Part shown: piece after piece, positions 8,216 to 64,000 of the stretch
Layout: each line of letters begins with the position of its first letter
Position numbering within the stretch: the first letter of the stretch is position 1
NCBI GenBank assembly: GCA_030141605.1
Contig: JAQGDQ010000051.1
Location: forward strand, 576,997 to 640,996
Source: Tubiluchus corallicola
Lineage: Eukaryota > Priapulida > Priapulimorpha > Priapulimorphida > Tubiluchidae
DNA: 64,000 bases
Direction of reading: 5' to 3'
Notes under the pieces: model-generated
What the model saw: only the letters and a program-made list of their open reading frames with translations
What the model was told of the DNA's origin: nothing
Database searches by the model: none
Position numbers and translations under genes: made by a program

Positions 8216-9150
8216 AGAGAACCAGAAGGCTACATTTTAGGCCTTTGTGTTTATAATGTTCATTAACGACATTACAAAAATGGGACGTCATAATAAAATG
8301 GTGTTATGTGCTAATTATACTGCTATTATGTAAAACTCAAATGTAAATACACTCTCGAAAATGACTTGAATAATGACCTCAGTAGTATTGCAGTCTGGAT
8401 CAGTGACAATAAGCTGACTTTAAATATGAACAAGACTAAAGCAATGTTATTTGGGACAAGTAGAAAATTACAAAACATTAGTGAATTTAATTTATTACTA
8501 AATGAATGTCGAATTGAAATTGCCTATAGTGTGGAACATTTAGGAGTTCACTTTCACCCCAATTTAAAATAGAACAAATTGCTGTTAAAATATTACAAAA
8601 AATCTCGGTTCTTAAAAAGGTCAATAGCACCCACAGCACACGCTTAAAACTTTGTTTAATGCTTTCTTCATGCCACATAGATTATTGTTTGGTAGCCTGG
8701 AGTATCACATTTAATATATTGATCGCATTCAAAAATCACAGAACAGAGCCCCGAGAATAATGCCGGATTGTAGTACCCGAGATCACCATGTAAATGATAT
8801 ATATAATAAATAAAAGTTAATGAAAGTAAAACGGAGAAGAGAGTGCTGGAAAGCAACAATGATGTACAAATGATTAAATAATTTTGTCCTATTATATCTG
8901 AGCCAGAACTTTCGATTCACTACAAATGTTCATAACTGTGACCCAAGATCACAATTGTTGTTATCTAATCAGCTATTTGTAAACGTTGTTAAGCTTGAGC
9001 ATGGTAAGCGTACATTTTATTACTTAGGAACTATGCTTTGGAATACTCTTTCAAATTACATGAAAGACGCACCACCTTTACATACTTCAAAAGTTTTGCT
9101 AAAACAATTTTTCGCGTATTGAATAGCCTCCGGTGTCTCCTGTGGCTTTA
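8216..9150 (+). pseudogene. LINE reverse transcriptase, C-terminal half, decayed
   Basis: Frameshifted, stop-containing remains of a CR1/Jockey-like ORF2: PEGYILG (motif B region), MCANYTAIM where YADD would be, then ENDLNNDLSSIAVWISDNK, LTLNMNKTKAMLFGTSRKL and VEHLGVHF. Further on come the carboxy-terminal KRTFYYLGTMLWNTLSN and LHTSKVLLKQF. The YADD catalytic pair is not preserved. The 3' flank to about 9425 (ending AATAAACTGACTAAAATTG) looks like the element's 3' UTR and tail. Confidence 0.75.
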
Positions 9151-38300: not shown

Positions 38301-41300
38301 AGAAAGAGAAACCAGTAATAAACTTAGAAAATGTACGGAATGTTTGCACCGGAACTGGAATTTTAAACAACCTAGAAGGCATGTAAATTCCCCTTAGGTG
38401 CAGTATAGCGAGCGCCAGACAGTTTTCAGAGATAGGCAGCAGTGGTACACAAATCCCAATTGAATGTTATTCTTACCAATAATTAGTCTTACGTCATTGG
38501 TCTTTAACGACCTACATGATTGGTCTTTAAAGACCGTAGTCTTACGTCATTGGTCTTTAACGACCTACATGATTGGTCTTTAAAGACCGTAGTGAATCAC
38601 TAGCTAGCTCAAAGAGGTATTTTAGACCCAGTGTAAAAGGTTGTGTACTGTGCCTCGCTTATAATGTATTGGGCTAACCGACACAAAAGTCAATTGCACT
38701 CCTATCTCAGTGGATTTGTGCTACACACAGTTGACACAAGCTGCCAATTTGCCATTATCTTCCTTATAGATACGCATATCTAGAAAAAGGATAGACCCAT
38801 TTTTCTCAACCTCAACTGTAAGATGTATAGCCAAGTGCAAACCATTCAAGAACATATGCACAAGAAACATGGGCAGTTATCTAAAGAATGTATGCTGATC
38901 CAGATAAGACTCCACGATCACATAGACGTTGCGATGCAATGTCTATGGCTTCCTTCACAAGTAGGGATGTGAACAGTGACTCTACACCAAATGACACCAT
39001 GAAAGCTGAACTCTGGAACTCAGATCCATTGATGAGATATGATTTCCTGTATGGTCGAAATTGATGTTGCCTTAGGTAACACAGATGAAACAATATTTCC
39101 TGCATAATTTCTCCGCCTCAGCTAAAACATCAAAACGATTACATTTGGCTAAACTGGAATGCTTTGGTCCGAATTTTACCACATCAATGACTCATTGTGG
39201 TAGACTCATATATGAGATACTCATAACTGAATAATACATTGCAATTGCAGGTCTGTCATATATCTTCCTGGGCTGTGTAATTTTCCCGGCATGTGTATAA
39301 CGAACTTGGCAGATACCTGGCAGAAGCCCAGTGTAGATGCTATTATCAACAATAACTCACTGCGAGCAAAGCCATTAGTAAAAAAACGGTAGGGAAACGA
39401 AATACGTTTACCACCATTAGTTCAAGGTCATCTTGACACTTAGTCAGCTAATTAGAAAGGAAACTCTGTTGCTATCTAATTGTAACTCTGGAACTGACTG
39501 GGAGTGTTGCTTGATAGGTGAAGCACCCTGAAAGTTTGAAAGACAGAAACTTTGGCACTAACTAATCTACAAGCAGGTCTGTAGAAACTGCTTGGAAAGT
39601 ATACACTTCCTATGTTTCAAGGTGGCATTCACATTTGCATAATAGAGGCTGTGCTGACTCTCCAACTATGGCAAAAGACCATTTACGTAAGAAAATACCT
39701 AGTGACCATACATGCACGTTCGTGCATCTCAGCTGCAATGCTAAACTACATCCCCATCCTATATGAGTTCTGTGTTGTGTGTGTGAGGCGCAGTATATCC
39801 AAAAACAGACTATACTGTAGGGTGTACAGTTCACTTCATATGCACTCATCGCTAGAAAATAACACTTTAGCCTCTGGCTTCTAGAGTACCAATAGTCATT
39901 CTCTTTAGACCACTTTTAACAACTTGTACTGCCCTCTCTGCTTGTTCGTTAGATGCCGGTTTGAATCGGGCAGATTTAATATGTTTCATGCCATCGTTAG
40001 TTAATAATTTCTGAAATTCAAAACTTGTAAAAGTAGTACCGTTATCGGAGACCAAAGAGCTTAGTTTAGTTGAAGCTGTTAGTACAACAAAATAAAACTA
40101 AATTTAAATTCACCAGATATTGATATATCGGCTCAGGCCAAGAAGGTAAACTTGTACAGGACTCCATACTACATACAAGTAACAAATTAGCATCTTCAAC
40201 AATAAAAACTGTATAATAACTACAGAGCAGAGGCATTCATAACCTAATTCTGTGTCATTCGGTCCTAGCGGTTTGTTTGTTCAGATGACGAAGGGATGAG
40301 CCCCTCCTGTCTTAGAAACCGCAAAATAGACTGTATTCATGATAAAATTATCAACACATAGGCTTCCTGAGATAGGCTTACTCATTCTCTATTTTTGCCT
40401 GAATATAGCAACAAAAAGAAAAAACATTGCCTTCATTATAACAGTGATACTATTAAAAGCAATATCGTTATAGGCATTGTCCATTTTTCTGCAACAGACT
40501 AAACAGTCTTGTAAATATTCTAAACTGAGGCTGTTTTATATTTGTTACAGATCGTATGTACACATACCAACAGTTACCTATACTACCACCATCGCAGCAC
40601 ATAAGACACCCAGTTTTGCGAGATCCTCTTCATACTCCGCCATCTCCAACATCGCCTAATGAAAGATCCAAATTACACCTGCAGCGGCCGCCCAAGAAAC
40701 CACGACGATCCAAAACAGATGCGAATGGTCTACCTGTGAAACGGAAAAATAGGGAAAGTAAGTGAACAACGCATGTGATTTGCAAAGCCTTGCAGCGTTT
40801 TTTAGTGATTATTAGTGACTGTGTTAATATTACTAAGCCCAAGCAATTAGCATTTAGTGATTGTTTGTGCCTTTTTTTTGTTTTTTTTTCACCTGAAGAT
40901 AGTCCAAAGCGGTAAACCTAAATGTCGTGCCTTTGGTATCTTTTATTTTATTTTCTGTGAGATATTTTTATTAAATGAACTCCATGAATTCTGTATATCC
41001 GTGTAACTGAACTCCTGGCCTCCTAGACAAAGCTCTAACACCATAGCTGTTTACCTTTTTACTATTCCTATTTCACCTTTTTGATATTTGATGATGGTTT
41101 GTAATAAATATGATTATGTGGAACGCACGCGTCAGCTTTCAATAAAGCATACGTGAGAAACTAGACAACATCTTATAAGCATTGTATACTTGCCATGAAC
41201 AATTTTTACTTAATTTACTGTATCTAAAAATTGTGTACTAGCATAGATTTGTACAACATCTTTAGTATGTGTCACTAAGCTGATTTTTTAGGTTCTACAA

Positions 41301-43486: not shown

Positions 43487-46400
43487 TACATTACAATCCA
43501 GCGTTTTAGCCTTTAATTTCAACTTTTCAGTTTCATAGTCACCTATTCACTTACTAACCGTGATCAGCACAGCTAACCATCAAATCACATTCAGCTATTT
43601 TCACTGAGTTTGATGTCTTGAAATTAAGCTTACTAATTACTAACAATGGTCTATGTGCACTCTATAGTTTTCGTACTTACGAAACGGAACTACGGCGTCC
43701 CCGTACGACCTACTTCATGATATTTAAAATCTTATGGACCTGTTCTTCTGGACAAAAAGCTAGTAATAAAACTTCCCTAAGCCCCCCCCCCCCCCCGATA
43801 GGGAAGTGCCTATAAACAATGTATATTAGGTAATATGTCAAAGTTTCTGAAAATCGGGCGTCTAGTTTCAAGAACATACAAATTGTTTGGAGTGATGGGC
43901 GATCGATAGAATCTGAGCCAGCCTGCTACGGCCTCCATTGAAAGGACTACGAGTACTATAAAATTTGCCAAAAAGCTGTAACCCAAAATATTGAACTTTT
44001 GCCTGCTACACTTGCATATCAAGACACTAATAGGCTTTTCTTTATGAGCCTACATGTTTGTTAACGCAGTCTGTAGCAGCTCAGCAGGACATGACAGTTT
44101 TGTCATTCTTTTTAAACTGTGATCGTCTTTATTACTATCATTTATGTTGCAAACAATATTAATTTTAATGAAATCATTTGGAACTAACATTGTATTCACT
44201 CCCTATATTATCATCTATGGAATTTGTCCACAAAAATAACACGAGACATGTAAGGAAATAATAAAAGTTTAGTTTCATTCCACTTTTTATTTGTTATTGA
44301 AAATAATCTCTAATTGAAAATGTGTTCGCTTGTAATTCAGTTATTCACTTCACATTCATGTATTTCATTTGCTACTTAATTCGCTGAGTATATCCGGTGT
44401 GCAGATTTTTATGATCGCCAAAATATCATCGTTATCATCACTATCATCGTCACCAAGTCAAGACATACTATTATAGAAATATTTAGTAACTATATTTTGT
44501 ACGAAATTATGTGCTTTTGAAGGACCACTATGAGATTCTAATGTTGTAGTGTTTTTACGGTACTAAGTTACTGTGCATTTAACGTTTAAAATAATGTATA
44601 TAGACATTTTTATAACTGTTGGTACTATAAATGATCATAAAGTTATTTACTGATTTTTTTACTATGGCTTAAACGCTGGTGGTGTGAAATTATAGTGCAC
44701 ATGAACGTATTATTTTAATATTGTAATATTTGTAATATAATTTTTGTACTATTTGATTGGTCAGGTGGAAAAACAGAATTAATTTTTAGATCTATAAGAT
44801 TATTTTCATAATTATACATTTAGCAATTGGCTTATTGTTACAAGCATCTACATTTATTGGTTGGGATTTAATACAAAATAAATTAATAATTATGCTTATA
44901 ACAAAAGAAATATAATTTGCTTATTTGCATTACAAAAATTTTTTGTCGGCTTGATGTTTATGTAGTGAGTTTGGTAGCCTGGCACCTACCGCTGCCTTTA
45001 CAGTGTAATGAAGACTTGTTACCAGATATGGAGGAATCATATTAAAGAAGAAAGAACTTCGAATAATGAAAATATCATACTGAATGTTCCAGTTAACATA
45101 ATAGCGAAAAGCAGCATATGCAACGGGCCGCAAACTTTCGAGCACCCCCGTACTAATACTTGCAATCTCGCGATCTGACAATGTTAATGTGTGTACACAT
45201 TTTATTAAAAATACTAATATCGCTTACCGAGTTTAGTGAGCTTACCTTTGGCGTATTTTTTTTTCGTTGATAAAGTGGTCATCTTGCTATTGGTCACCAG
45301 AACAGTTAGGTACGTATAAATTGAAAATTGCAGGTTAATAATATATCATCGGCATTTCAGACTTTAGTTACGATAATGGGTTTTAATTATTTCAAGTTGG
45401 GCTTATTTAGTGAAAAGGATTTTTATACTTGTTGTTGATAAGAATAGCCTCATGGCACCAGGAGATGCAAAAAAGGAATTAATGTCAGTGTAATTTGGGT
45501 GGTTAAACTCGCAAGGTTTGACGTCACTGTGACATGAAGTTTAGGGGTTTCCGTTATCTGCACGAGCTTGGCAAAGATTCAAGACGCTGAGATGCGAGCG
45601 TGGAGGTTCGAACTTGGAGAGCTGGTTGGGAGACGCAAACAAGAGAGCTATTTTATACGAGACTACTTTGACATGTAACGCGACAAGAATTCTGAATATT
45701 TTTTATCGTGTTATTATTAATTCGACTTTATTATTTTAGTAAATAGTAAGTAAAAATATCCCAAACATTGGTGATAGGTTTCATGACCTTGTACACTTAT
45801 ATAATTATAGCCAAAGCTAAGAAAATTATCGTCGAGCACAACAAAACAAATTTAGCACCGCACCAGGTGCCTATTGACGGAAAGAAGAGTATTTCACCAA
45901 TTTTCTCTTTCACAAGTTAAGGCACTCAATTCAAACATTGGAAGAGTGGAGAAGATCTGAAGTTCAACGCAGAAGATACCATTAGGAAAAGAAAGCGAAG
46001 CGAAGAAAATAAAATAAGACATTTTACTGAGAAAAGCGTAGTACAAAAACTGTGCTGCGATGTATCAGTTGTGTATGGTATATGACACTGAGGTCCAGTA
46101 CAAGTGAGATGCTTAGCTCTTAGTTATCCATTAGTGAGATAGATAGATAAAATTTGTTTCGTCCCACTTATTTAACACTCGGATACAAATTATATAAATG
46201 CCTCAAACAGGAGCTCAGGTTTTAGCTATAAGACACCAGTATTTCACAGAATTAAAAAAATATTTTTTTAATTTAATTACTTTTTATTTGAATTCAGTAC
46301 ACATAGTATTATATTACACATATTTACAAGACACAAAAAATTATTGAAAAAATACTAACTAGAAATATAAAATACATATTGAAAAACCTTACCTAAAAAT

Positions 46401-46563
46401 TTACAACTTAAAATCATCACGTAACATGTTTCAGCAGTTTTAAAAAATGGAGACTCAAATAAAACACCAGAGTTTATACAGCCACAGGCTAAAATGTCAT
46501 TTTTACTTACAAAAACGCGACTTCTTAAACTAAAGCAACTTTTTTTCATTATTTCTTCATAAA
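43487..46563. other. AT-rich flank between the foldback element and the array
   Basis: No gene seen. A 15-C tract lies at 43782-43796. The minus-strand frames at 43810-44022, 44930-45181 and 46355-46600 show no domain. AATAAA signals near 44258 and 44876 could serve a long E74 3' end. Confidence 0.5.
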
Positions 46564-49500
46564 GTGTCCAGAAGATGTCTGCAGGCAACGTTATGCACAT
46601 TGTCAGAAGACACAGCCACAGGTGATATTAACATATCTGATGTATTTGGCCAAGAGACATATACTGACAGCCTCAACAAACTGTAAGGAAAACATCGCTG
46701 ATTGCAAGCATCAGATAAGTAGACATCTACAGGCAGTCTTAAACAGCTAGTCAGGAGGTATCTACTGTGAATCTCAAGTATCTGGCCAGAAGGCTTTTAC
46801 AGGTAATCTTAAGCGCCTGCTCAGAAGGTAGGCAATGTTGAGCACATTGTCAGAAGACATATAATCACTTACAATTATCTGGTCAGAAAAGATCTGCAGG
46901 TAATCTTTGGCAACTAGTGAGAACACATCTAATGACAATATCAAGTATCAGGTCAGAAGGCGTCTACAGATGATATTAACACATATGAAGTATTTGGCCA
47001 AGAGACATACATATCCTGCCAGCCTCAACAAACTGAAAGGAAATCATCTGTAATGAATTGCAAGCATCTGATAAGTAGACATCTACAGGCAGTCTTAAGC
47101 AGCTAGTCAGGAGGCATCTACCTTGAATCTCAAGTATCAGGCCAGAAAAGATCTACAGGTAATCTTAGGCAACTAGTGAGAAGGCATCTAATGACAATAT
47201 CAAGCATCAGGTTAGAAGGCGTCTACGGACGCTCTTAAGCATCAAGTCAGGAGGCTTCTGCTGTCAATATCAAGTATCAGCTCATAAGGCGTCTAAGGGG
47301 GATATTAACACATTTGAAGTATTTGGCCAGGAGACATGTACTGGCAGCCTCAATAAACTGTAAGGAAATCATCTGTAACGAATTGCAAGCATCTGATAAG
47401 TAAGCATGTACAAGCAGTCTTAAGTAGCTAGTTAGGAGGTATCTACTGTTGCTCTAAAGCTTTTGGCCAGAAGGCATCTACAAGCAACCTAAAGCAACCG
47501 CTCAGGACACATTTAGGGCGTTCTCAAACATTCCAGCAAAATGTCTACTGCCAACACCAAGTATCAGACCAGAAGACTTCTATAGACAATGTAAAGCATG
47601 TGGACAGAATACACCTACATGCAATAATATTAAGCTCTGGGCCAAACCAGATCTAAAGACACCATTAAACTTGGTCAGGAGACCATTACAATCAGCCTCA
47701 ATCATCTCCCAGGAAAACATCCATAGCTAATCGCAAGAACGCGTCCAGAAGACCTCTGCAGACAGCGTTATGCACATTGTCAGAAGACATACAACCACAG
47801 GTGATATTAACACATCTGATGTAATTGGCCAAGAGACATATACTGGCAGCCTCAACAAACTGTAAGGAAAACATCTATAACTGATTGCAAGCATCAGATA
47901 AGTAGACATCTACAGACAGTCTTAAACAGCTAGTCAGGAGGTATCTACTGTGAATCTCAAGTATCTGGCCAGAAGGCTTTTACGGGCGATATTACCCACC
48001 TGGCCAGAACACATCTACAGGCACTATAAATCTGGTCAGGAGACAATTACTGGCAGCCTCAATCATCTGTTAGGAAGGCAGCTGTAGCTAATCACAAGCA
48101 GCTAGCCAGGAGATATCCACTACCAATTGAAAGTATCTCGCCAGAAAAGTCCTACAGGTAATCTTAGGCACCTAGTGAGAAGACATCTAATGACAATATC
48201 AAGTCAGGCCAGAAGGCACCTACAGGCGCTCTTAAGCATCAAGTCGGGAGGTATCTGCTGTCAATATCAAGTGTCAGCTCAGAAGGCGTCTACAGGTGAT
48301 ATTAACACATCTGATGTATTTGGCCAAGAGATATATACTGGCAGCCTCAACAAACTGTAAGGAAAACATCGCTGATTGCAAGCATCAGATAAGTAGACAT
48401 CTACAGGCAGTCTTAAACAGCTAGTCAGGAGGTATCTACTGTGAATCTCAAGTATCTGGCCAGAAGGCTTTTACAGGTAATCTTAAGCGCCTGCTCAGAA
48501 GGTAGGCAATGTTGAGCACATTGTCAGAAGACATATAATCACTTACAATTATCTGGTCAGAAAAGATCTGCAGGTAATCTTTGGCAACTAGTGAGAACAC
48601 ATCTAATGACAATATCAAGTATCAGGTCAGAAGGCGTCTACAGATGATATTAACACATATGAAGTATTTGGCCAAGAGACATACATATCCTGCCAGCCTC
48701 AACAAACTGAAAGGAAATCATCTGTAATGAATTGCAAGCATCTGATAAGTAGACATCTACAGGCAGTCTTAAGCAGCTAGTCAGGAGGCATCTACCTTGA
48801 ATCTCAAGTATCAGGCCAGAAAAGATCTACAGGTAATCTTAGGCAACTAGTGAGAAGGCATCTAATGACAATATCAAGCATCAGGTTAGAAGGCGTCTAC
48901 GGACGCTCTTAAGCATCAAGTCAGGAGGCTTCTGCTGTCAATATCAAGTATCAGCTCATAAGGCGTCTAAGGGGGATATTAACACATTTGAAGTATTTGG
49001 CCAGGAGACATGTACTGGCAGCCTCAATAAACTGTAAGGAAATCATCTGTAACGAATTGCAAGCATCTGATAAGTAAGCATGTACAAGCAGTCTTAAGTA
49101 GCTAGTTAGGAGGTATCTACTGTTGCTCTAAAGCTTTTGGCCAGAAGGCATCTACAAGCAACCTAAAGCAACCGCTCAGGACACATTTAGGGCGTTCTCA
49201 AACATTCCAGCAAAATGTCTACTGCCAACACCAAGTATCAGACCAGAAGACTTCTATAGACAATGTAAAGCATGTGGACAGAATACACCTACATGCAATA
49301 ATATTAAGCTCTGGGCCAAACCAGATCTAAAGACACCATTAAACTTGGTCAGGAGACCATTACAATCAGCCTCAATCATCTCCCAGGAAAACATCCATAG
49401 CTAATCGCAAGAACGCGTCCAGAAGACCTCTGCAGACAGCGTTATGCACATTGTCAGAAGACATACAACCACAGGTGATATTAACACATCTGATGTAATT

Positions 49501-50522
49501 GGCCAAGAGACATATACTGGCAGCCTCAACAAACTGTAAGGAAAACATCTATAACTGATTGCAAGCATCAGATAAGTAGACATCTACAGACAGTCTTAAA
49601 CAGCTAGTCAGGAGGTATCTACTGTGAATCTCAAGTATCTGGCCAGAAGGCTTTTACGGGCGATATTACCCACCTGGCCAGAACACATCTACAGGCACTA
49701 TAAATCTGGTCAGGAGACAATTACTGGCAGCCTCAATCATCTGTTAGGAAGGCAGCTGTAGCTAATCACAAGCAGCTAGCCAGGAGATATCCACTACCAA
49801 TTGAAAGTATCTCGCCAGAAAAGTCCTACAGGTAATCTTAGGCACCTAGTGAGAAGACATCTAATGACAATATCAAGTCAGGCCAGAAGGCACCTACAGG
49901 CGCTCTTAAGCATCAAGTCGGGAGGTATCTGCTGTCAATATCAAGTGTCAGCTCAGAAGGCGTCTACAGGTGATATTAACACATCTGATGTATTTGGCCA
50001 AGAGATATATACTGGCAGCCTCAACAAACTGTAAGGAAAACATCTGTAACTAATTTCAAGCATTTGATAAGCAGACATGTACAGGCAGTCTAAAGCAGCT
50101 AGTCAGGAGGTATCTACTGTGAATCTCAAGTATCTGGCCAGAAAAGCCCTACAGGCACTCTCAAATGACTTGCCAGAAGACATATACAGACAACCAAAAG
50201 CAGCTGGACAGTATAGATGTAGAGCAATCTCAAGCATCTCAACAAAACATTTACTTCCATTAACAAGTCACCGACCAGAAAACTTCTACAGGCAATTTTG
50301 AGCACATTGTCAGAAGACATACAATCACTTACAATTATTTGGCCAGAAAAAGATCTACAGGTAATCTTAGGCAACTAGTGAGAAGACAGCTAATGACAAT
50401 ATCAAGCATCCGGTTAGAAGGCGTCTACGGACGCTTTTAAGCATCAAGACAGGAGGTTTCTGCTGTCAATATCAAGTATCAGCTCATAAGGCGTCTAAGG
50501 GGGATATTAACACATTTGAAGT
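46564..50522. repeat. Tandem array, domain 1 (35-bp monomers)
   Basis: Built from diverged units of 35 bp that typically start AAG(C/T)ATC(T/A)GG(T/C)CAGAAG, have TCTACAGG in the middle and end CAAT(A/C)T(C/T). Five consecutive exact 35-bp units occupy 47132-47166, 47167-47201, 47202-47236, 47237-47271 and 47272-47306. Some units are lengthened to about 45 bp. No open frame persists across it, so it is non-coding satellite-like DNA. Confidence 0.92.
46621..49968. repeat. 1,674-bp higher-order repeat, two near-identical copies
   Basis: Copy 1 is 46621-48294 and copy 2 is 48295-49968. Differences seen by eye are confined to a few bases in the first ~50 bp. A third copy begins at 49969 and diverges after about 70 bp, at CATCTGTAACTAATTTC. 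The length equals about 48 monomers of 35 bp. Confidence 0.93.
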
Positions 50523-51379
50523 ATTTCCTCTGTCCAGATACTTGATATTACTCTAGCTGAGTTTTGACTAGATGTTGCTGCCTACATGTCTGATATTGTT
50601 CTAAGTGAGTTCTGACTAGAACACTCTGACTAGAGACTCTGACTAGATGTTTCGGGTTGTTTGTAGACGGGTGGGACTATTCTAAATGAGTTCTGGTTTG
50701 GTACTGCATTTTTGTCTATATATCTCAATAGATGAATAGAATTGTGTAGGTGTTAAATGTTTCAGGCAGCTCTAAGTGAGTTCTGATTAGGTGTTTCAGG
50801 ATTTCTGTCGATCTTAATAGGTTATATGCCTACAGACTTGATGTAGATGTTTTAGGTTGCGTATAGATACCGTATTGCCAAACGGCTGAGTTTTCCTACC
50901 TGATGCTTGAGTTTGGTCACTGATGACTTCTAAGAAGCTGATTGTGGCTTTCTGTGTATTTCCCTATTTATATGCTTAACATTGCCTGTAGACGTCTTCT
51001 GCCAGATACTAGAGATTTACAATCGAATTTCCTTTGTCCAGATGCTTGATTTACTCTAGCTTGATTACTCTAGCTGAGTTTTGACTAGATGTTTCTGCCT
51101 ACATGTCTGATTGCTCTAAGTGACTTTTGACTAGATGTTTCGGGTTGTTTGTAGATGTTTGGGACTGCTCTAAATGAGTTCTGGTTAGGTGTTTCAGGAT
51201 TTTTGTCGATCTCAACAGGCTATATGCCTACAGACTTGATGTAGATGTTTTAGGTTGCGTATCTACAAACAACCCGAAACATCTAGTCAGAACTCACTTA
51301 GAACAATATCAGACATGTAGGCAGCAACATCTAGTCAAAACTCAGCTAGAGTAATATCAAGTGTCTGGACAGAGGAAAT
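50523..51379. repeat. Inverted block forming a palindrome inside the array
   Basis: From about 50523 to about 51260 the monomers read on the opposite strand (for example TTTTGACTAGATGTTGCTGCC), then orientation flips back. The outer ~98 bp, 50523-50620, is the reverse complement of 51282-51379, with one mismatch noticed. Both share the private variant GCAGCAACATCTAG. Confidence 0.88.
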
Positions 51380-53091
51380 TCTATTGTCAATGTCAAGTAT
51401 CTGGCTGAAGACGTCTACAGGCAATGTTAAGCATATGAATAGGGAAATACACAGAAAGCCTCTATTAGCATGTTAGAAGACACGTACGTCTAAGATCTAC
51501 AGAAATCCTGAAACACCTAACCAGAACTCATTTAGAGCAGTCCCAAACATATACAAACAACCCTGAACATCTAGTCGGAACTCACTTAGAGCAATCAGAC
51601 ATGTAGGCAGAAATATCTAGTCAAAATTCATGTAGAGCAGTCCCAAACATCTACAAGCAACCCGAAACATCTAGTCAGAAGTCACTTAGAGCAATATCAG
51701 ACATGTAGGCAGAAACATCTAGTCAAAACTCATCTAGAGTAAGATCCCAAACGTATTTGGACAGACCCGGAACATCTAGTCAGAGCTCACTGTAAATCAA
51801 TCAAGATATCTAGGCAGATGGCTTCTAGTCAAAACGCAATGTTAGAGCATTCCTGAACGTGGACAGTACAACCAGAAAGCATCTAGTCAGAAGTTAGCTT
51901 GGTAGAAGATCAGTCATGTAGGCACAAACATCTACGTCAAAACTCTGGTAGAGCAATACTCAAGCCGTTTGGCACATACGGATATTCTATATGTCAACCT
52001 AAAACATCTGACATCAAGTCGTGTACGGGCAATGATAACCTGTTAAGAATCGACAGAAATACACTGAAAGCACGCTAATCAGAGCTTCTTAGAAGACGCA
52101 TACATCTAAGCTCTACATGATAGGCAGAAACATCTAGTCAAAACTCATGTAGAGCATTCCCAAACATATACAAACAACCCAGAACATCTAGTCAAAAGTC
52201 ACTTAGAGCAATATCAGACATGTAGGCAGGAACATGTAGTCAAAACCCAGCTAGAGTAATATCAAGCATCTGGACATAGGAAATACTTCAAATAATGTCA
52301 GTCTCAAGTATCCCCCTTAGACGCCTTATAGAGGCAATGATAAGCATATGAATATTGACAGTACACAGAAAGCCTCACTGTACTTGATGCTTAAAAGACG
52401 TCCGTAGACGCCTTCTAACTCGGATGCATCTGATATTGATCATTCAGCTGTCTTGGTAAGACTGTATATATGCAATCTAAATGATCTACTAATACATCAT
52501 GTCTGAAGGCACTTCCTCTGAACCCAATAATCTGTTAAGAAATACAGGCATCCTGAAACATCTAGTCAGAACGCAGAGCAGTCCCAAACATCTACAAACA
52601 AACCGAAACATCTAGTCAGAGCTCACTTAGAGCAATCAGACATGTAGGCAGAAACATCTAGTCAAAACTCATGTAGAGCATTCCCAAACATATACAAACA
52701 ACCCAGAACATCTAGTCAAAAGTCACTTAGAGCAATCAGACATGTAGGCAGGAACATGTAGTCAGAAGACATTTAGAGCAGTCCCAAACATCTACAAACA
52801 ACCCGAAACATCTAGTCAAAACTCATCTAGAGTAACATCAAGTATTTGAACAGAGGAAATTCGATTGTCAATCTCAAGTATCTGGCAGAAGGCTTGTATA
52901 GGCAATGTTAAGCATCTGAACAGGGAAGTACACAGAAAGCCTCAATTAGCTTGTTAGAAGACACGTACACCTAAACTCAAGCATCTGGTAGGAAGATTCA
53001 ACCGTTTGGTAAGACTGTATATATGCAGTCTAAATGATCTAGTAATACATCAAGTCTGAAGGCACTTCCTCTGAACCCAATAATCTGTTAA

Positions 53092-54669
53092 GAAATACAG
53101 GCATCCTGAAACATCTAGTCAGAACGCAGAGCAGTCCCAAACATCTACAAACAAACCGAAACATCTAGTCAGAGCTCACTTAGAGCAATCAGACATGTAG
53201 GCAGAAACATCTAGTCAAAACTCGTTTAGAGCAGTCCCAAACATCTACAAACAACCCGAAACATCTAGTCAGAAGTCACTTAGAACAATATCAGAAATGT
53301 AGGCAGAAACATCTAGTCAAAACCCAGCTAGAGTAATATCAAGTATCTGGACATAGGAAATTCGATTGTCAATCTCAAGTATCTGGCAGAAGACGTCTAC
53401 GGGCAATGATAAGCATATGAATAGGGAAATACACAGAAAGCCGCAATTAGCTTCTTAGAAGACACATACATCTAAGCTCTACAGAAATCCTGAAACACCT
53501 AACCAGAACTCATTTAGAGCAGTCCCAAACATATACAAACAACCCGGAACATCTAGTCAGAAGTCACTTAGAGCAATATCAGGCATGTAGGCAGAAACAT
53601 CTAGTCAAAACTCAGCTAGAGTAATATCAAGTATCTAGACAAAGGAAATTCGATTGTCAATCTCAAGTATCTGGCAGAAGGCTTCTACAGGCAATGTTAA
53701 GCATATGAATAGGGAAGTACACAGAAAGCCTCAATTAGTTTGTTAGAAGACACGTACACCTAAACTCAAGCATCTGGTAGGAAGATTCAACCGTTTGGTA
53801 AGACTGTATATATGCAATCTAAATGATCTACTAATACATCATGTCTGAAGGCACTTCCTCTGAACCCAATAATCTGTTAAGAAATACAGGCATCCTGAAA
53901 CATCTAGTCAGAACGCAGAGCAGTCCCAAACATCTACAAACAAACCGAAACATCTAGTCAGAGCTCACTTAGAGCAATCAGACATGTAGGCAGAAACATC
54001 TAGTCAAAACTCGTTTAGAGCAGTCCCAAACATCTACAAACAACCCGAAACATCTAGTCAGAAGTCACTTAGAACAATATCAGAAATGTAGGCAGAAACA
54101 TCTAGTCAAAACCCAGCTAGAGTAATATCAAGCATCTGGACATAGGAAATTCGATTGTCAATCTCAAGTATCTGGCAGAAGACGTCTACGGGCAATGATA
54201 AGCATATGAATAGGGAAATACACAGAAAGCCGCAATTAGCTTCTTAGAAGACACATACATCTAAGCTCTACAGAAATCCTGAAACACCTAACCAGAACTC
54301 ATTTAGAGCAGTCCCAAACATATACAAACAACCCGGAACATCTAGTCAGAAGTCACTTAGAGCAATATCAGGCATGTAGGCAGAAATATCTAGTCAAAAC
54401 TCAGCTAGAGTAATATCAAGTATCTAGACAAAGGAAATTCGATTGTCAATCTCAAGTATCTGGCAGAAGGCTTCTACAGGCAATGTTAAGCATATGAATA
54501 GGGAAGTACACAGAAAGCCTCAATTAGTTTGTTAGAAGACACGTACACCTAAACTCAAGCATCTGGTAGGAAGATTCAACCGTTTGGTAAGACTGTATAT
54601 ATGCAATCTAAATGATCTACTAATACATCATGTCTGAAGGCACTTCCTCTGAACCCAATAATCTGTTAA
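53092..54669. repeat. 789-bp higher-order repeat, adjacent copies
   Basis: The block starting GAAATACAGGCATCCTG at 53092 recurs at 53881, offset 789 bp, with only scattered differences by eye. Related blocks of about 785-792 bp recur at intervals up to about 61 kb. They are interleaved with ~555-bp blocks that carry the alternative segment AACATGTAGTCAGAAGACAT. Confidence 0.8.
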
Positions 54670-54696
54670 GATATACAGGCATCCTGAAACATCTAG

Positions 54697-57380
54697 TCAG
54701 AACGCACTTAGAATAATCTCTAGCATCTAGACTGATAAAGTCTATTTCGAATCTCAGATACCTAACCAGACGACCTGTACAGGCAATGTTATACAATGAG
54801 AGAACACCTCTCATATCTAGTTAGAAGGCATCCACGTCCAATTCTATTAATTTACTAAGATATATAGACGAACTGCAGCATCTAGTCAAAACTCATTTAG
54901 AGCAGTCCCAAACATATACAAACAATCCGAATGTCAATCTCAAGCATCTGGCAGAAGACGTCTACGGGCAATGTTAAGCATATGAATAGGGAAATACACA
55001 GAAAGCCCCAATTAGCTTGTTAGAAGACACGCACATCTAAGATCTACAGAAATCCTGAAACACCTAACCAGAACTCATTTAGAGCAGTCCCAAACATATA
55101 CAAACAACCCGGAACATCTAGTCGGAACTCACTTAGAGCAATCAGACATGTAGGCAGAAACATCTAGTCAAAACTCATTTAGAGCAGTACCAAACATCTA
55201 CAAACAACCCGAAACATCTAGTCAGAAGTCACTTAGAACAATATCAGAAATGTAGGCAGAAACATCTAGTCAAAACCCAGCTAGAGTAATATCAAGCATC
55301 TGGACATAGGAAATTCGATTGTCAATCTCAAGTATCTGGCAGAAGGCTTCTACAGGCAATGTTAAGCATATGAATAGGGAAGTACACAGAAAGCCGCAAT
55401 TAGCTTCTTAGAAGACACATACATCTAAGCTCTACAGAAATCCTGAAACACCTAACCAGAACTCATTTAGAGCAGTCCCAAACATATACAAACAACCCGG
55501 AACATCTAGTCAGAAGTCACTTAGAGCAATATCAGGCATGTAGGCAGAAACATCTAGTCAAAACTCAGCTAGAGTAATATCAAGTATCTAGACAAAGGAA
55601 ATTCGATTGTCAATCTCAAGTATCTGGCAGAAGGCTTCTACAGGCAATGTTAAGCATATGAATAGGGAAGTACACAGAAAGCCTCAATTAGTTTGTTAGA
55701 AGACACGTACACCTAAACTCAAGCATCTGGTAGGAAGATTCAACCGTTTGGTAAGACTGTATATATGCAATCTAAATGATCTACTAATACATCATGTCTG
55801 AAGGCACTTCCTCTGAACCCAATAATCTGTTAAGAAATACAGGCATCCTGAAACATCTAGTCAGAACGCAGAGCAGTCCCAAACATCTACAAACAAACCG
55901 AAACATCTAGTCAGAGCTCACTTAGAGCAATCAGACATGTAGGCAGAAACATCTAGTCAAAACTCATGTAGAGCATTCCCAAACATATACAAACAACCCA
56001 GAACATCTAGTCAAAAGTCACTTAGAGCAATCAGACATGTAGGCAGGAACATGTAGTCAGAAGACATTTAGAGCAGTCCCAAACATCTAGTCAAAACTCA
56101 TCTAGAGTAACATCAAGTATTTGAACAGAGGAAATTCGATTGTCAATCTCAAGTATCTGGCAGAAGGCTTGTATAGGCAATGTTAAGCATCTGAACAGGG
56201 AAGTACACAGAAAGCCTCAATTAGCTTGTTAGAAGACACGTACACCTAAACTCAAGCATCTGGTAGGAAGATTCAACCGTTTGGTAAGACTGTATATATG
56301 CAGTCTAAATGATCTAGTAATACATCAAGTCTGAAGGCACTTCCTCTGAACCCAATAATCTGTTAAGAAATACAGGCATCCTGAAACATCTAGTCAGAAC
56401 GCAGAGCAGTCCCAAACATCTACAAACAAACCGAAACATCTAGTCAGAGCTCACTTAGAGCAATCAGACATGTAGGCAGAAACATCTAGTCAAAACTCGT
56501 TTAGAGCAGTCCCAAACATCTACAAACAACCCGAAACATCTAGTCAGAAGTCACTTAGAACAATATCAGAAATGTAGGCAGAAACATCTAGTCAAAACCC
56601 AGCTAGAGTAATATCAAGCATCTGGACATAGGAAATTCGATTGTCAATCTCAAGTATCTGGCAGAAGACGTCTACGGGCAATGATAAGCATATGAATAGG
56701 GAAATACACAGAAAGCCGCAATTAGCTTCTTAGAAGACACATACATCTAAGCTCTACAGAAATCCTGAAACACCTAACCAGAACTCATTTAGAGCAGTCC
56801 CAAACATATACAAACAACCCGGAACATCTAGTCAGAAGTCACTTAGAGCAATATCAGGCATGTAGGCAGAAACATCTAGTCAAAACTCAGCTAGAGTAAT
56901 ATCAAGTATCTAGACAAAGGAAATTCGATTGTCAATCTCAAGTATCTGGCAGAAGGCTTCTACAGGCAATGTTAAGCATATGAATAGGGAAGTACACAGA
57001 AAGCCTCAATTAGTTTGTTAGAAGACACGTACACCTAAACTCAAGCATCTGGTAGGAAGATTCAACCGTTTGGTAAGACTGTATATATGCAATCTAAATG
57101 ATCTACTAATACATCATGTCTGAAGGCACTTCCTCTGAACCCAATAATCTGTTAAGATATACAGGCATCCTGAAACATCTAGTCAGAACGCACTTAGAAT
57201 AATCTCTAGCATCTAGACTGATAAAGTCTATTTCGAATCTCAGATACCTAACCAGACGACCTGTACAGGCAATGTTATACAATGAGAGAACACCTCTCAT
57301 ATCTAGTTAGAAGGCATCCACGTCCAATTCTATTAATTTACTAAGATATATAGACGAACTGCAGCATCTAGTCAAAACTC
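54697..57380. repeat. 2,486-bp spaced duplicate carrying a distinctive ~190-bp segment
   Basis: The segment with GACTGATAAAGTCTATTTCG and CGACCTGTACAGGCAATG at about 54697-54895 recurs at 57183-57380 (offset 2,486) and at 63467-63660. A variant lies at 62795-62970. After the segment the copies continue with different monomers, showing recombination junctions inside the array. Confidence 0.75.
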
Positions 57381-60300
57381 AGCTAGAGTAATATCAAGCA
57401 TCTACAAAGAATTCGATTGTCAATCTCAAGTATCTGGCAGAAGGCTTCTACAGGCAATGTTAAGCATATGAATAGGGAAGTACACAGAAAGCCTCAATTA
57501 GTTTGTTAGAAGACACGTACACCTAAACTCAAGCATCTGGTAGGAAGATTCAACCGTTTGGTAAGACTGTATATATGCAATCTAAATGATCTACTAATAC
57601 ATCATGTCTGAAGGCACTTCCTCTGAACCCAATAATCTGTTAAGAAATACAGGCATCCTGAAACATCTAGTCAGAACGCAGAGCAGTCCCAAACATCTAC
57701 AAACAAACCGAAACATCTAGTCAGAGCTCACTTAGAGCAATCAGACATGTAGGCAGAAACATCTAGTCAAAACTCATGTAGAGCATTCCCAAACATATAC
57801 AAACAACCCAGAACATCTAGTCAAAAGTCACTTAGAGCAATCAGACATGTAGGCAGGAACATGTAGTCAGAAGACATTTAGAGCAGTCCCAAACATCTAC
57901 AAACAACCCGAAACATCTAGTCAAAACTCATCTAGAGTAACATCAAGTATTTGAACAGAGGAAATTCGATTGTCAATCTCAAGTATCTGGCAGAAGGCTT
58001 GTATAGGCAATGTTAAGCATCTGAACAGGGAAGTACACAGAAAGCCTCAATTAGCTTGTTAGAAGACACGTACACCTAAACTCAAGCATCTGGTAGGAAG
58101 ATTCAACCGTTTGGTAAGACTGTATATATGCAGTCTAAATGATCTAGTAATACATCAAGTCTGAAGGCACTTCCTCTGAACCCAATAATCTGTTAAGAAA
58201 TACAGGCATCCTGAAACATCTAGTCAGAACGCAGAGCAGTCCCAAACATCTACAAACAAACCGAAACATCTAGTCAGAGCTCACTTAGAGCAATCAGACA
58301 TGTAGGCAGAAACATCTAGTCAAAACTCGTTTAGAGCAGTCCCAAACATCTACAAACAACCCGAAACATCTAGTCAGAAGTCACTTAGAACAATATCAGA
58401 AATGTAGGCAGAAACATCTAGTCAAAACCCAGCTAGAGTAATATCAAGCATCTGGACATAGGAAATTCGATTGTCAATCTCAAGTATCTGGCAGAAGACG
58501 TCTACGGGCAATGTTAAGCATATGAATAGGGAAGTACACAGAAAGCCTCAATTAGTTTGTTAGAAGACACATACATCTAAGCTCTACAGAAATCCTGAAA
58601 CACCTAACCAGAACTCATTTAGAGCAGTCCCAAACATATACAAACAACCCGGAACATCTAGTCAGAAGTCACTTAGAGCAATATCAGGCATGTAGGCAGA
58701 AACATCTAGTCAAAACTCAGCTAGAGTAATATCAAGCATCTGGACATAGGAAATTCGATTGTCAATCTCAAGTATCTGGCAGAAGACGTCTACGGGCAAT
58801 GTTAAGCATATGAATAGGGAAGTACACAGAAAGCCTCAATTAGTTTGTTAGAAGACACGTACACCTAAACTCAAGCATCTGGTAGGAAGATTCAACCGTT
58901 TGGTAAGACTGTATATATGCAATCTAAATGATCTACTAATACATCATGTCTGAAGGCACTTCCTCTGAACCCAATAATCTGTTAAGAAATACAGGCATCC
59001 TGAAACATCTAGTCAGAACGCAGAGCAGTCCCAAACATCTACAAACAAACCGAAACATCTAGTCAGAGCTCACTTAGAGCAATCAGACATGTAGGCAGAA
59101 ACATCTAGTCAAAACTCGTTTAGAGCAGTCCCAAACATCTACAAACAACCCGAAACATCTAGTCAGAAGTCACTTAGAGCAATCAGACATGTAGGCAGGA
59201 ACATGTAGTCAGAAGACATTTAGAGCAGTCCCAAACATCTACAAACAACCCGAAACATCTAGTCAAAACTCATCTAGAGTAACATCAAGTATTTGAACAG
59301 AGGAAATTCGATTGTCAATCTCAAGTATCTGGCAGAAGGCTTGTATAGGCAATGTTAAGCATCTGAACAGGGAAGTACACAGAAAGCCTCAATTAGCTTG
59401 TTAGAAGACACGTACACCTAAACTCAAGCATCTGGTAGGAAGATTCAACCGTTTGGTAAGACTGTATATATGCAGTCTAAATGATCTAGTAATACATCAA
59501 GTCTGAAGGCACTTCCTCTGAACCCAATAATCTGTTAAGAAATACAGGCATCCTGAAACATCTAGTCAGAACGCAGAGCAGTCCCAAACATCTACAAACA
59601 AACCGAAACATCTAGTCAGAGCTCACTTAGAGCAATCAGACATGTAGGCAGAAACATCTAGTCAAAACTCGTTTAGAGCAGTCCCAAACATCTACAAACA
59701 ACCCGAAACATCTAGTCAGAAGTCACTTAGAACAATATCAGAAATGTAGGCAGAAACATCTAGTCAAAACCCAGCTAGAGTAATATCAAGCATCTGGACA
59801 TAGGAAATTCGATTGTCAATCTCAAGTATCTGGCAGAAGACGTCTACGGGCAATGATAAGCATATGAATAGGGAAATACACAGAAAGCCGCAATTAGCTT
59901 CTTAGAAGACACATACATCTAAGCTCTACAGAAATCCTGAAACACCTAACCAGAACTCATTTAGAGCAGTCCCAAACATATACAAACAACCCGGAACATC
60001 TAGTCAGAAGTCACTTAGAGCAATATCAGGCATGTAGGCAGAAACATCTAGTCAAAACTCAGCTAGAGTAATATCAAGTATCTAGACAAAGGAAATTCGA
60101 TTGTCAATCTCAAGTATCTGGCAGAAGGCTTCTACAGGCAATGTTAAGCATATGAATAGGGAAGTACACAGAAAGCCTCAATTAGTTTGTTAGAAGACAC
60201 GTACACCTAAACTCAAGCATCTGGTAGGAAGATTCAACCGTTTGGTAAGACTGTATATATGCAATCTAAATGATCTAGTAATACATCAAGTCTGAAGGCA

Positions 60301-63300
60301 CTTCCTCTGAACCCAATAATCTGTTAAGAAATACAGGCATCCTGAAACATCTAGTCAGAACGCAGAGCAGTCCCAAACATCTACAAACAAACCGAAACAT
60401 CTAGTCAGAGCTCACTTAGAGCAATCAGACATGTAGGCAGAAACATCTAGTCAAAACTCGTTTAGAGCAGTCCCAAACATCTACAAACAACCCGAAACAT
60501 CTAGTCAGAAGTCACTTAGAACAATATCAGAAATGTAGGCAGAAACATCTAGTCAAAACCCAGCTAGAGTAATATCAAGCATCTGGACATAGGAAATTCG
60601 ATTGTCAATCTCAAGTATCTGGCAGAAGACGTCTACGGGCAATGATAAGCATATGAATAGGGAAATACACAGAAAGCCGCAATTAGCTTCTTAGAAGACA
60701 CATACATCTAAGCTCTACAGAAATCCTGAAACACCTAACCAGAACTCATTTAGAGCAGTCCCAAACATATACAAACAACCCGGAACATCTAGTCAGAAGT
60801 CACTTAGAGCAATATCAGGCATGTAGGCAGAAACATCTAGTCAAAACTCAGCTAGAGTAATATCAAGTATCTAGACAAAGGAAATTCGATTGTCAATCTC
60901 AAGTATCTGGCAGAAGGCTTCTACAGGCAATGTTAAGCATATGAATAGGGAAGTACACAGAAAGCCTCAATTAGTTTGTTAGAAGACACGTACACCTAAA
61001 CTCAAGCATCTGGTAGGAAGATTCAACCGTTTGGTAAGACTGTATATATGCAGTCTAAATGATCTACTAATACATCATGTCTGAAGGCACTTCCTCTGAA
61101 CCCAATAATCTGTTAAGATATACAGGCATCCTGAAACATCTAGTCAGAACGCACTTAGAATAATCTCGAGCATCTAGACTGATAAAGTCTATTTCGAATC
61201 TCAGATATCTGGCAGAAGGCTTGTATAGGCAATGTTAAGCATATGAATAGGGAAGTACACAGAAAGCCTCAATTAGCTTGTTAGAAGACACGTACACCTA
61301 AACTCAAGCATCTGGTAGGAAGATTCAACCGTTTGGTAAGACTGTATATATGCAGTCTAAATGATCTAGTAATACATCAAGTCTGAAGGCACTTCCTCTG
61401 AACCCAATAATCTGTTAAGAAATACAGGCATCCTGAAACATCTAGTCAGAACGCAGAGCAGTCCCAAACATCTACAAACAAACCGAAACATCTAGTCAGA
61501 GCTCACTTAGAGCAATCAGACATGTAGGCAGAAACATCTAGTCAAAACTCATTTAGAGCAGTACCAAACATCTACAAACAACCCGGAACATCTAGTCAGA
61601 AGTCACTTAGAGCAATATCAGGCATGTAGGCAGAAATATCTAGTCAAAACTCATCTAGAGTAATATCAAGTATTTGGACAGAGGAAATTCGATTGTCAAT
61701 CTCAAGTATCTGGCAGAAGGCTTCTATAGGGAATGTTAAGCATCTGAACGGGGAAGTACACAGAAAGCCTCAATTAGCTTGTTAGAAGACACGTACACCT
61801 AAACTCAAGCATCTGGTAGGAAGATTCAACCGTTTGGTAAGACTGTATATATGCAGTCTAAATGATCTACTACTACATCATGTCTGAAGGCACTTCCTCT
61901 GAACCCAATAATCTGTTAAGATATACAGGCATCCTGAAACACCTTATCAGAACTCGCTTTGAGCTACCTGAAACATTTGACACCTACACAATTCTATTCA
62001 TCTATTGAGATATATAGACAAAATGCAGCATCTAACCAGAACTCATTTAGAGCAGTTCCAAACATATACAAACAACCCGGAACATCTAGTCAGAACGCAC
62101 TTAGAGCAATCAGACATGTAGGCAGAAACATCTAGTCAAAACTCATTTAGAGCAGTACCAAACATCTACAAACAACCCGAAACATCTAGTCAGAAGTCAC
62201 TTAGAGCAATATAGACAAAATGCAGCATCTAACCAGGACTCATTTAGAGCAGTCCCAAACATATACAAACAACCCGGAACATCTAGTCAGAAGTCACTTA
62301 GAGCAATATCAGGCATGTAGGCAGAAATATCTAGTCAAAACTCATCTAGAGTAATATCAAGTATTTGGACAGAGGAAATTCGATTGTCAATCTCAAGTAT
62401 CTGGCAGAAGGCTTCTATAGGGAATGTTAAGCATCTGAACGGGGAAGTACACAGAAAGCCTCAATTAGCTTGTTAGAAGACACGTACACCTAAACTCAAG
62501 CATCTGGTAGGAAGATTCAACCGTTTGGTAAGACTGTATATATGCAGTCTAAATGATCTACTACTACATCATGTCTGAAGGCACTTCCTCTGAACCCAAT
62601 AATCTGTTAAGATATACAGGCATCCTGAAACACCTTATCAGAACTCGCTTTGAGCTACCTGAAACATTTGACACCTACACAATTCTATTCATCTATTGAG
62701 ATATATAGACAAAATGCAGCATCTAACCAGAACTCATTTAGAGCAGTTCCAAACATATACAAACAACCCGGAACATCTAGTCAGAACGCACTTAGAGTAA
62801 TCTCTAGAATCTAGACTGATGAAGTCTATTTCGAATCTCAGATACCTAACCAGACGACCTGTGCAGGCAATGTTATACAATAAGAGAACACCTCTCATAT
62901 CTAGTAAGAAGGCTTCCACATCCAATTCTATTAATTTATTAAGATATACAGACGAACTGCAGCATCTAGTCAAAACTCACTTAGAGCTACCTGAAGCATT
63001 TGACACCTACACAATTCTGTTCATCTCTGGAGATATATAGACAAAATGTAGCATCTAACCAGAACTCATTTAGAGCAGTCCCAAACATATACAAACAACC
63101 CGGAACATCTAGTTATAACTCACTTAGAACAATATCAGAAATGTAGGCAGAAACATCTAGTCAAAACCCAGCTAGAGTAATATCAAGCATCTGGACAGAG
63201 GAAATTCGATTGTCAATCTCAAGTATCTGGCAGAAGGCTTCTATAGGCAATGTTAAGCATATGAATAGGGAAATACACAGAAAGCCCCAATTAGCTTGTT

Positions 63301-64000
63301 AGAAAACACGTACACCTAAACTCAAGCATCTGGTAGGAAGATTCAACCGTTTGGTAAGACTGTATATATGCAGTCTAAATGATCTAGTAATACATCATGT
63401 CTGAAGGCACTTCCTCTGAACCCAATAATCTGTTAAGATATACAGGCATCCTGAAACATCTAGTCAGAACGCACTTAGAATAATCTCTAGCATCTAGACT
63501 GATAAAGTCTATTTCGAATCTCAGATACCTAACCAGACGACCTGTACAGGCAATGTTATACAATGAGAGAACACCTCTCATATCTAGTTAGAAGGCATCC
63601 ACGTCCAATTCTATTAATTTACTAAGATATATAGACGAACTGCAGCATCTAGTCAAAACTCATTTAGAGCAGTCCCAAACATATACAAACAATCCGAATG
63701 TCAATCTCAAGTATCTGGCAGAAGGCTTCTATAGGCAATGTTAAGCATATGAATAGGGAAATACACAGAAAGCCCCAATTAGCTTGTTAGAAGACACGCA
63801 CATCTAAGATCTACAGAAATCCTGAAACACCTAACCAGAACTCATTTAGAGCAGTCCCAAACATATACAAACAACCCGGAACATCTAGTCGGAACTCACT
63901 TAGAGCAATCAGACATGTAGGCAGAAACATCTAGTCAAAACTCATTTAGAGCAGTTCCAAACATCTACAAACAACCCGAAACATCTAGTCAGAAGTCACT

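Follow-up and report, generated by a model that had tools for sequence, protein, structure and literature searches.

A 33-kb array of decayed 35-bp monomers in Tubiluchus corallicola, probably the edge and core of one layered satellite

The window analysed in this study is a 64,000-nucleotide stretch of the genome of the priapulid Tubiluchus corallicola (C1451:576,997-640,996; assembly of 343.5 Mb in 2,344 contigs), and its right-hand part is filled by short tandem repeats. An initial annotation, made from the letters alone, had described these repeats as two unlike satellite domains which evolved side by side from one monomer of about 35 bp. The question raised by this locus is whether the two domains are separate satellites or parts of a single structure. 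The reading preferred here, with a probability of about 0.82, is that the array is satellite DNA of a genome-wide family, and that the two domains are the edge (type A) and the core (type B) of one layered array.

Extent and segment order of the array

A 35-bp profile was scanned along both strands of the contig. The array started at position 46,566 and occupied the window through position 64,000. It was followed directly by a run of N (64,001-65,631; 1,631 bp), the sole gap in the array, and ended at window-equivalent position 79,787 (C1451:656,783), which gives a total of 33.2 kb. The array had been predicted to run past the window, and it does so with a more complex layout than had been described (Table 1). 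The order by type was A(+), B(-), B core(+) and A(-,+,-), with domain 1 corresponding to type A, domain 2 to type B, and type A reappearing at the far end. The 33-kb block is nearly all decayed copies of one 35-bp unit. Within the window, the array contained no closed stop-to-stop frame above 90 aa, and this portion of it is non-coding.

Table 1. Features at and beside the array. Positions are those of the window; positions above 64,000 are window-equivalent.
Feature	Position	Strand	Evidence
Dispersed repeat (about 290 bp) whose end lies 8 bp from the array start	46,265-46,557		at least 39 other genome matches at 73-83% identity, among the best 40 of 95 candidates
Type A zone (domain 1), left array edge	46,566-50,512	+	profile scan; monomer cut, 111 units, 35-bp monomers
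Imperfect palindrome at the left A/B boundary	50,529-51,765		87.1% identical over 1,084 aligned positions
Inverted type B piece between A and the B core	50,529-51,249	-	profile scan, block comparison
Type B core (domain 2), built of monomers of 34-35 bp	about 51,259 to about 74,360, beyond the window; plus-strand profile segment 51,296-74,353	+	profile scan, lags, monomer cut
Short minus-strand profile segment inside the B core	52,315-52,454	-	score 47, better than plus strand
Right-hand A segment	74,392-75,603	-	profile scan
Right-hand A segment	75,484-78,866	+	profile scan
Right-hand A segment, array end	78,870-79,787	-	profile scan

The two domains differed in their internal repetition. The higher-order units of the B core were long, with lags of 789, 5105, 1342, 288 and 100. 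Domain 1 contained an exact run of 1,703 bp (46,668-48,370) which was repeated 1,674 bp further on (both copies span 46,668-50,044), and which reflects either a single tandem duplication of recent date or a duplicate introduced by the assembly. When the count was limited to units of 10 or more aligned columns, 55 of the 111 units of domain 1 were exactly 35 bp long; the description of domain 1 as consecutive units of exactly 35 bp applies to these, and the remaining units differ from it. Domain 2 yielded 376 units of varied length, among them 94 with 34 bp and 82 with 35 bp; lengths of 29-33, 37, 48 and 18 bp also occurred. Together with the inverted piece, these counts agree with the approximately 500 visible monomers estimated earlier.

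In addition to the palindrome at the left A/B boundary, more inverted pairs were present inside the right A of the array, and domain-1 words were detected in reverse within 52,001-52,500 (0.07), overlapping the short minus-strand segment of the B core. Inverted matches also linked the two A/B boundaries, with an A part of 663 bp at 78.6% and a B part of 312 bp at 90.7%, the latter pairing the left inverted B piece with oppositely oriented sequence at the right rim of the B core. The two boundaries are not claimed as copies of one duplicated junction, as they are spaced differently and the A segment has better matches to A sequence elsewhere. An Rfam match to MIR7996 was recorded at 51,094-51,327, in the palindrome (44.6 bits, far under the gathering score of 119), and was probably caused by the hairpin shape of the palindrome.

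Outside the array, the initial annotation had placed a putative developmental regulator as its neighbour; Pfam searches of ten window ORFs found no family for the three candidate-exon ORFs (at 18,117, 29,328 and 40,529). Two weak Pfam matches below the curated cut-off, to an integrase core (39,870-40,097, minus strand, E 0.0017) and to a reverse transcriptase (8,315-8,569, plus strand, E 0.0027), are probably retroelement remnants.

One consensus monomer and four array types

A profile built from domain 1 alone scored 5987.2 bits on domain 2. The controls scored far lower, at 1399.8 (domain 2 with its letters shuffled), 587.2 (domain 2 reverse-complemented), and 490.0 and 632.1 (two control stretches taken from the window). 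With a stricter combined profile, the array segments listed for this contig scored 41-885 each, and the best local scores off the array were 26.1 and 25.5 (the two strands of window positions 1-46,000), against 21.4 and 23.6 for shuffles. The consensus 35-mer of the family is CAGAAGACATCTACAGGCAATCTCAAGCATCTGGT. When the consensus was refined in nine array groups, with all nine refinements started from one profile, each result was 0-2 substitutions from one 35-mer, with up to 4 substitutions between groups. Independent refinements were seeded with random 35-bp array pieces, six each for C984, C1810 and domain 2. The best three of six by score matched the consensus at 34, 34 and 33 of 35 positions for C984, at 34, 31 and 25 for C1810, and at 28, 30 and 19 for domain 2. 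The type B consensus is recovered less well from independent seeds. A pattern search of the assembly found one gapless monomer with no more than 3 substitutions from the consensus (reversed control, 0), and the family therefore looks like an old burst which has since decayed. The proposal of one ancestral monomer of about 35 bp under both domains is upheld by the profile transfer and by the nine refinements. The outcome that would have spoken against it, namely unrelated monomer families aligning no better than shuffled sequence, did not occur, either in the profile scores or in the mean identity of the units between domains before near-duplicates were removed (0.623, against 0.268 for letter-shuffled units; 0.634 within domain 1 and 0.648 within domain 2).

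Comparison of 22 array pieces at block level (coverage at a threshold of at least 90 bp and at least 70% identity) suggests four types. Type A comprises domain 1 and the far right end of the C1451 array; type B comprises domain 2, the inverted piece, C507, C562, C760, C1356, C2208 and, in part, C1960; type C comprises C2264, C984 and the inner parts of C1740 and C1741; and type D is C1810. C34 and C478 had no clear placement, and C2344 had no match to the other 21 pieces at this threshold. The boundary between types B and C was blurred, with domain 2 covering 0.79 of C2264 and 0.79 of C984 at 70% identity or more. The window part of domain 2 covered 0.11 of domain 1, and the coverage in the reverse direction was 0.01.

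At this block level, the two domains are indeed unlike, as the initial annotation had stated. At the level of single monomers they hardly differ. After removal of near-duplicates and of units with fewer than 28 aligned columns, which left 77/207, 65/633, 53/226 and 46/167 units in the four types, the mean identities were 0.614 for A-A, 0.599 for A-B, 0.602 for B-B, 0.598 for C-C and 0.609 for D-D. The best A-to-B matches (0.774) were close to those of a column-permuted simulation (0.766). Nearest neighbours fell in their own subfamily more often than with shuffled labels (A, 0.82 versus 0.31; B, 0.52 versus 0.27), an excess which local copying would give too. This excess points towards the two monomer sub-clades that had been anticipated, but in the strong sense such sub-clades are not supported, given the similar identities within and between types and the simulation. 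The monomer-level types are hardly distinct, and the pattern is taken as a star-like radiation of monomers from one sequence, after which blocks were amplified along separate lines. An origin of the two domains side by side at this locus is not supported either, as B-type arrays are present on C507, C562, C760, C1356 and C2208 and A-type edges on C1740 and C1741.

Conservation, considered as a possible sign of constraint on the monomer such as a binding site would impose, was uneven along the monomer within each of the four types (deviance of 169, 132, 52 and 99 on 31 df, versus 22 for simulated even decay), although part of this unevenness arises because the own consensus of some types differs at a column. 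Between types, the agreement in conservation was weak after base correction (rho 0.26-0.45, versus 0.11-0.45 against simulation), and the conservation of type A correlated equally well with the simulation (0.45). In a version of this test restricted to ungapped units, type A alone had enough units (50). In each of the four types, the raised lags included 10 or 11, as a sub-repeat of 10-11 bp, three per monomer, would give; the shuffle test gave 12, 2, 42 and 44 of 300 for types A, B, C and D, which is no more than suggestive of a shorter ancestor of the monomer.

Core-edge layering and the dispersal of the family

Layering was measured in 300-bp windows, as the share of each that was identical in its best single alignment elsewhere in the array, so that partial alignments count low. 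The median share was 1.00 in the B core of C1451 (140 windows) and 0.75 in the right A (35 windows). In the left A, the median was 1.00 (25 windows), and 0.77 when matches inside the left A were set aside; the exact 1,703-bp repeat located there indicates that an edge too can be recently copied. For C1740 and C1741, the C-type cores had medians of 0.99 and 0.99 (90 and 44 windows) and the A edges had medians of 0.37 and 0.36 (24 and 6 windows). C1810 had a median of 0.96 (50 windows) and C1866 of 1.00 (100 windows). Higher-order copies, with core medians of 0.99-1.00, were far more alike than the deduplicated monomers (approximately 0.60). Edge windows of 250 bp that best matched type A numbered six at C1740 and five at C1741 (147 versus 50 bits, for example), and the remaining edge windows of C1740 best matched B or C, or had no match. 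Both of these arrays reach contig starts, and they may be the two sides of one array.

A homogenised core with diverged relatives on both sides is present at C1451, on the left only when the exact duplicate of the A zone is set aside, and at C1740/C1741 if both are sides of one array. No A-type flank was found at C1810 (both edges visible), at the right edge of C2264 or at the visible edge of C984, and the type A coverage of C507, C562, C760 and C2208 was none or 0.02. The A-edge rule is not general across arrays. The pattern at C1451 is that of a core re-amplified later than the surrounding family burst, with edges that are more decayed, and C1740/C1741 are similar.

Layering of this kind might suggest a centromeric or pericentromeric satellite, with the C1451 array as a small or relic centromere, layered by repeated expansion of the core as in primate alpha satellite. 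The sharing of one edge type by C1451 and C1740/C1741, with differing cores, would fit this, as would the arrays on C1740, C1741, C984, C760 and C1866, which reach contig ends as longer unassembled arrays would. Against it, the C1451 array takes up no more than 33 kb of an 830-kb contig, and small arrays occur at dispersed places; this explanation is considered unlikely. It is doubtful that the 35-bp minisatellite gave rise to a centromeric satellite system in which cores were renewed at each locus and older type A material was pushed to the edges. If it did, the history of an expanding centromere would be legible in a 33-kb stretch, in arrays built on one now nearly vanished 35-mer.

The family extends more widely than the initial annotation had claimed. 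With the C1451 array or a consensus tetramer as query, matches were found on at least 21 contigs (C1451, C1740, C1741, C34, C2208, C2098, C2097, C1866, C507, C562, C760, C1960, C1356, C2264, C2138, C1787, C478, C2344, C2096, C984 and C1810), and as only the best candidates were scored, the family may have further members. Loci are fewer than contigs, since some contigs resemble copies of one another: C2264, C2138 and C1787 gave parallel hits at a constant offset in several places, and many windows of C1866 and C2208 agreed at 98-100%. Isolated arrays of small size (0.25-2.3 kb) were present on C34, C478, C507, C562, C1356, C1960 and C2344. Other tandem self-similar stretches were observed near the small arrays on C34 and C1356 (L009:7744-8789 and L014:9117-9843). 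The exact monomer pattern had 0 matches in viral contigs and 0 in GTDB prokaryote contigs. Four monomer fragments had no text match in the literature, and titles and abstract openings described no 35-bp satellite like this family, in searches that left most subscription papers outside.

Such a distribution could also have been produced by a mobile element that carried the arrays inside it and dispersed them, either a foldback transposon with tandem-repeat TIRs or a HINE/Helentron with central repeats. The small isolated arrays on seven contigs fit mobile carriage, the C1451 array opens in plus and closes in minus orientation with A on both sides, and precedents are available in Tetris (PMC4079207) and Cg_HINE (PMC7492417). 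The array-masked flanks of 15 pieces gave 82 matches, self-matches included, and contained no common flanking module and no conserved left and right modules of the HINE/Helentron kind; the matches touching array edges (C507 and C562 with C2208) look like unmasked array sequence, and the others lie away from the edges. At nine two-edged arrays, the longest word shared by the surroundings of both edges was 5-6 bp, a length reached by 67-165 of 200 random pairs, and no target site duplication above control was found, the test being doubtful at C507 and C562, where the called right edges stop short of array-like sequence. HINEs lack target duplications, and only the flank test therefore bears on that version. 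Eight of the nine arrays had a single orientation and only C1451 changed orientation, hence a foldback element is not indicated. No fixed ends or shared flanks were found among the arrays. A search for empty alleles found no second locus copy, with queries across the small arrays of C1960 and C478 and from the left flank only of C1451. With flanks, target duplications and orientation all against it, a mobile-element origin was rejected as quite improbable. That the domains are unrelated satellites alike by chance composition, for which their low block-level coverage could be cited, has a virtually negligible chance of being correct and is refuted by the profile transfer, far above the shuffled and reverse-complement controls, and by the consensus refinements, in which independent seeds gave nearly the same 35-mer at C984 and C1810 and a less complete one for domain 2.

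Proposed history and comparison with known systems

The layered-satellite reading is favoured by the constancy of the consensus, the star-like identities, the lone near-consensus match, the contrast between core and edge, the lack of a frame longer than 90 aa and the lack of common flanks. Counted against it are the absence of A edges at several arrays, the exact repeat in the left A, the weaker independent consensus of type B, and the uneven conservation of the monomer, which simple neutral decay does not predict. Under this reading, a homogeneous 35-bp minisatellite with the family consensus would long ago have multiplied and dispersed over many loci. Its monomers would then have decayed to the mutual identity of about 60% seen today, with a consensus that stayed nearly unchanged at the tested loci. 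Stretches of many decayed monomers would have been re-amplified as long locus-specific units, perhaps through unequal exchange or replication slippage, leaving a core nearly identical between copies and edges which, exchanging less, would retain more decayed material. Finally, breakage and template switching may have generated the inversions and the palindromic boundary. It is most likely that the C1451 array neither encodes a product nor serves a selected function where it lies.

Several known systems resemble parts of this picture. Tetris, a foldback element of Drosophila virilis with target duplications of 8-10 bp, likewise has tandem repeats in opposite orientations and satellite-like arrays of kb size, whereas the 35-bp arrays are without target duplications above control and without common ends (PMC4079207). 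The Helentron Cg_HINE of Crassostrea gigas has central repeats, and its left and right flanks are alike over 50-100 bp; it shares with the present family the dispersal of related tandem arrays in the genome, but no such alike flanks were found at the 35-bp arrays (PMC7492417). TCAST1 of Tribolium castaneum forms dispersed satellite arrays, and it is similar in that one family occurs as both large arrays and short scattered arrays; its sequence is different, and the 35-bp family is known here from sequence alone (PMC3411249, PMC5844308).

At C1451, related monomers follow one another head to tail in a long tandem array, which is best classified as a satellite that combines layering with higher-order repeats specific to the locus, a known kind which reflects ordinary satellite growth. 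Primate alpha satellite has a 171-bp monomer, higher-order repeats and older monomeric flanks. The C1451 array is like it in its diverged monomers, near-identical locus-specific core units, diverged shared edges and local inversions. It is unlike it in its 35-bp monomer, in having tens of monomers per higher-order unit and in its size of tens of kb rather than Mb; in addition, it sits in an ordinary contig, layering is seen at C1451 and C1740/C1741 only, and a centromere role is putative here. Layered satellites tend to be very long and to resist assembly. At C1451, edge, boundary, core and boundary lie inside 33 kb of one contig with both flanks present, and are readable nearly from end to end, while C1740/C1741 share the edge type and have a different core. 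This compact layout, together with C1740/C1741, makes the order of burst, decay, multi-monomer re-amplification and boundary inversion directly testable in relatives.
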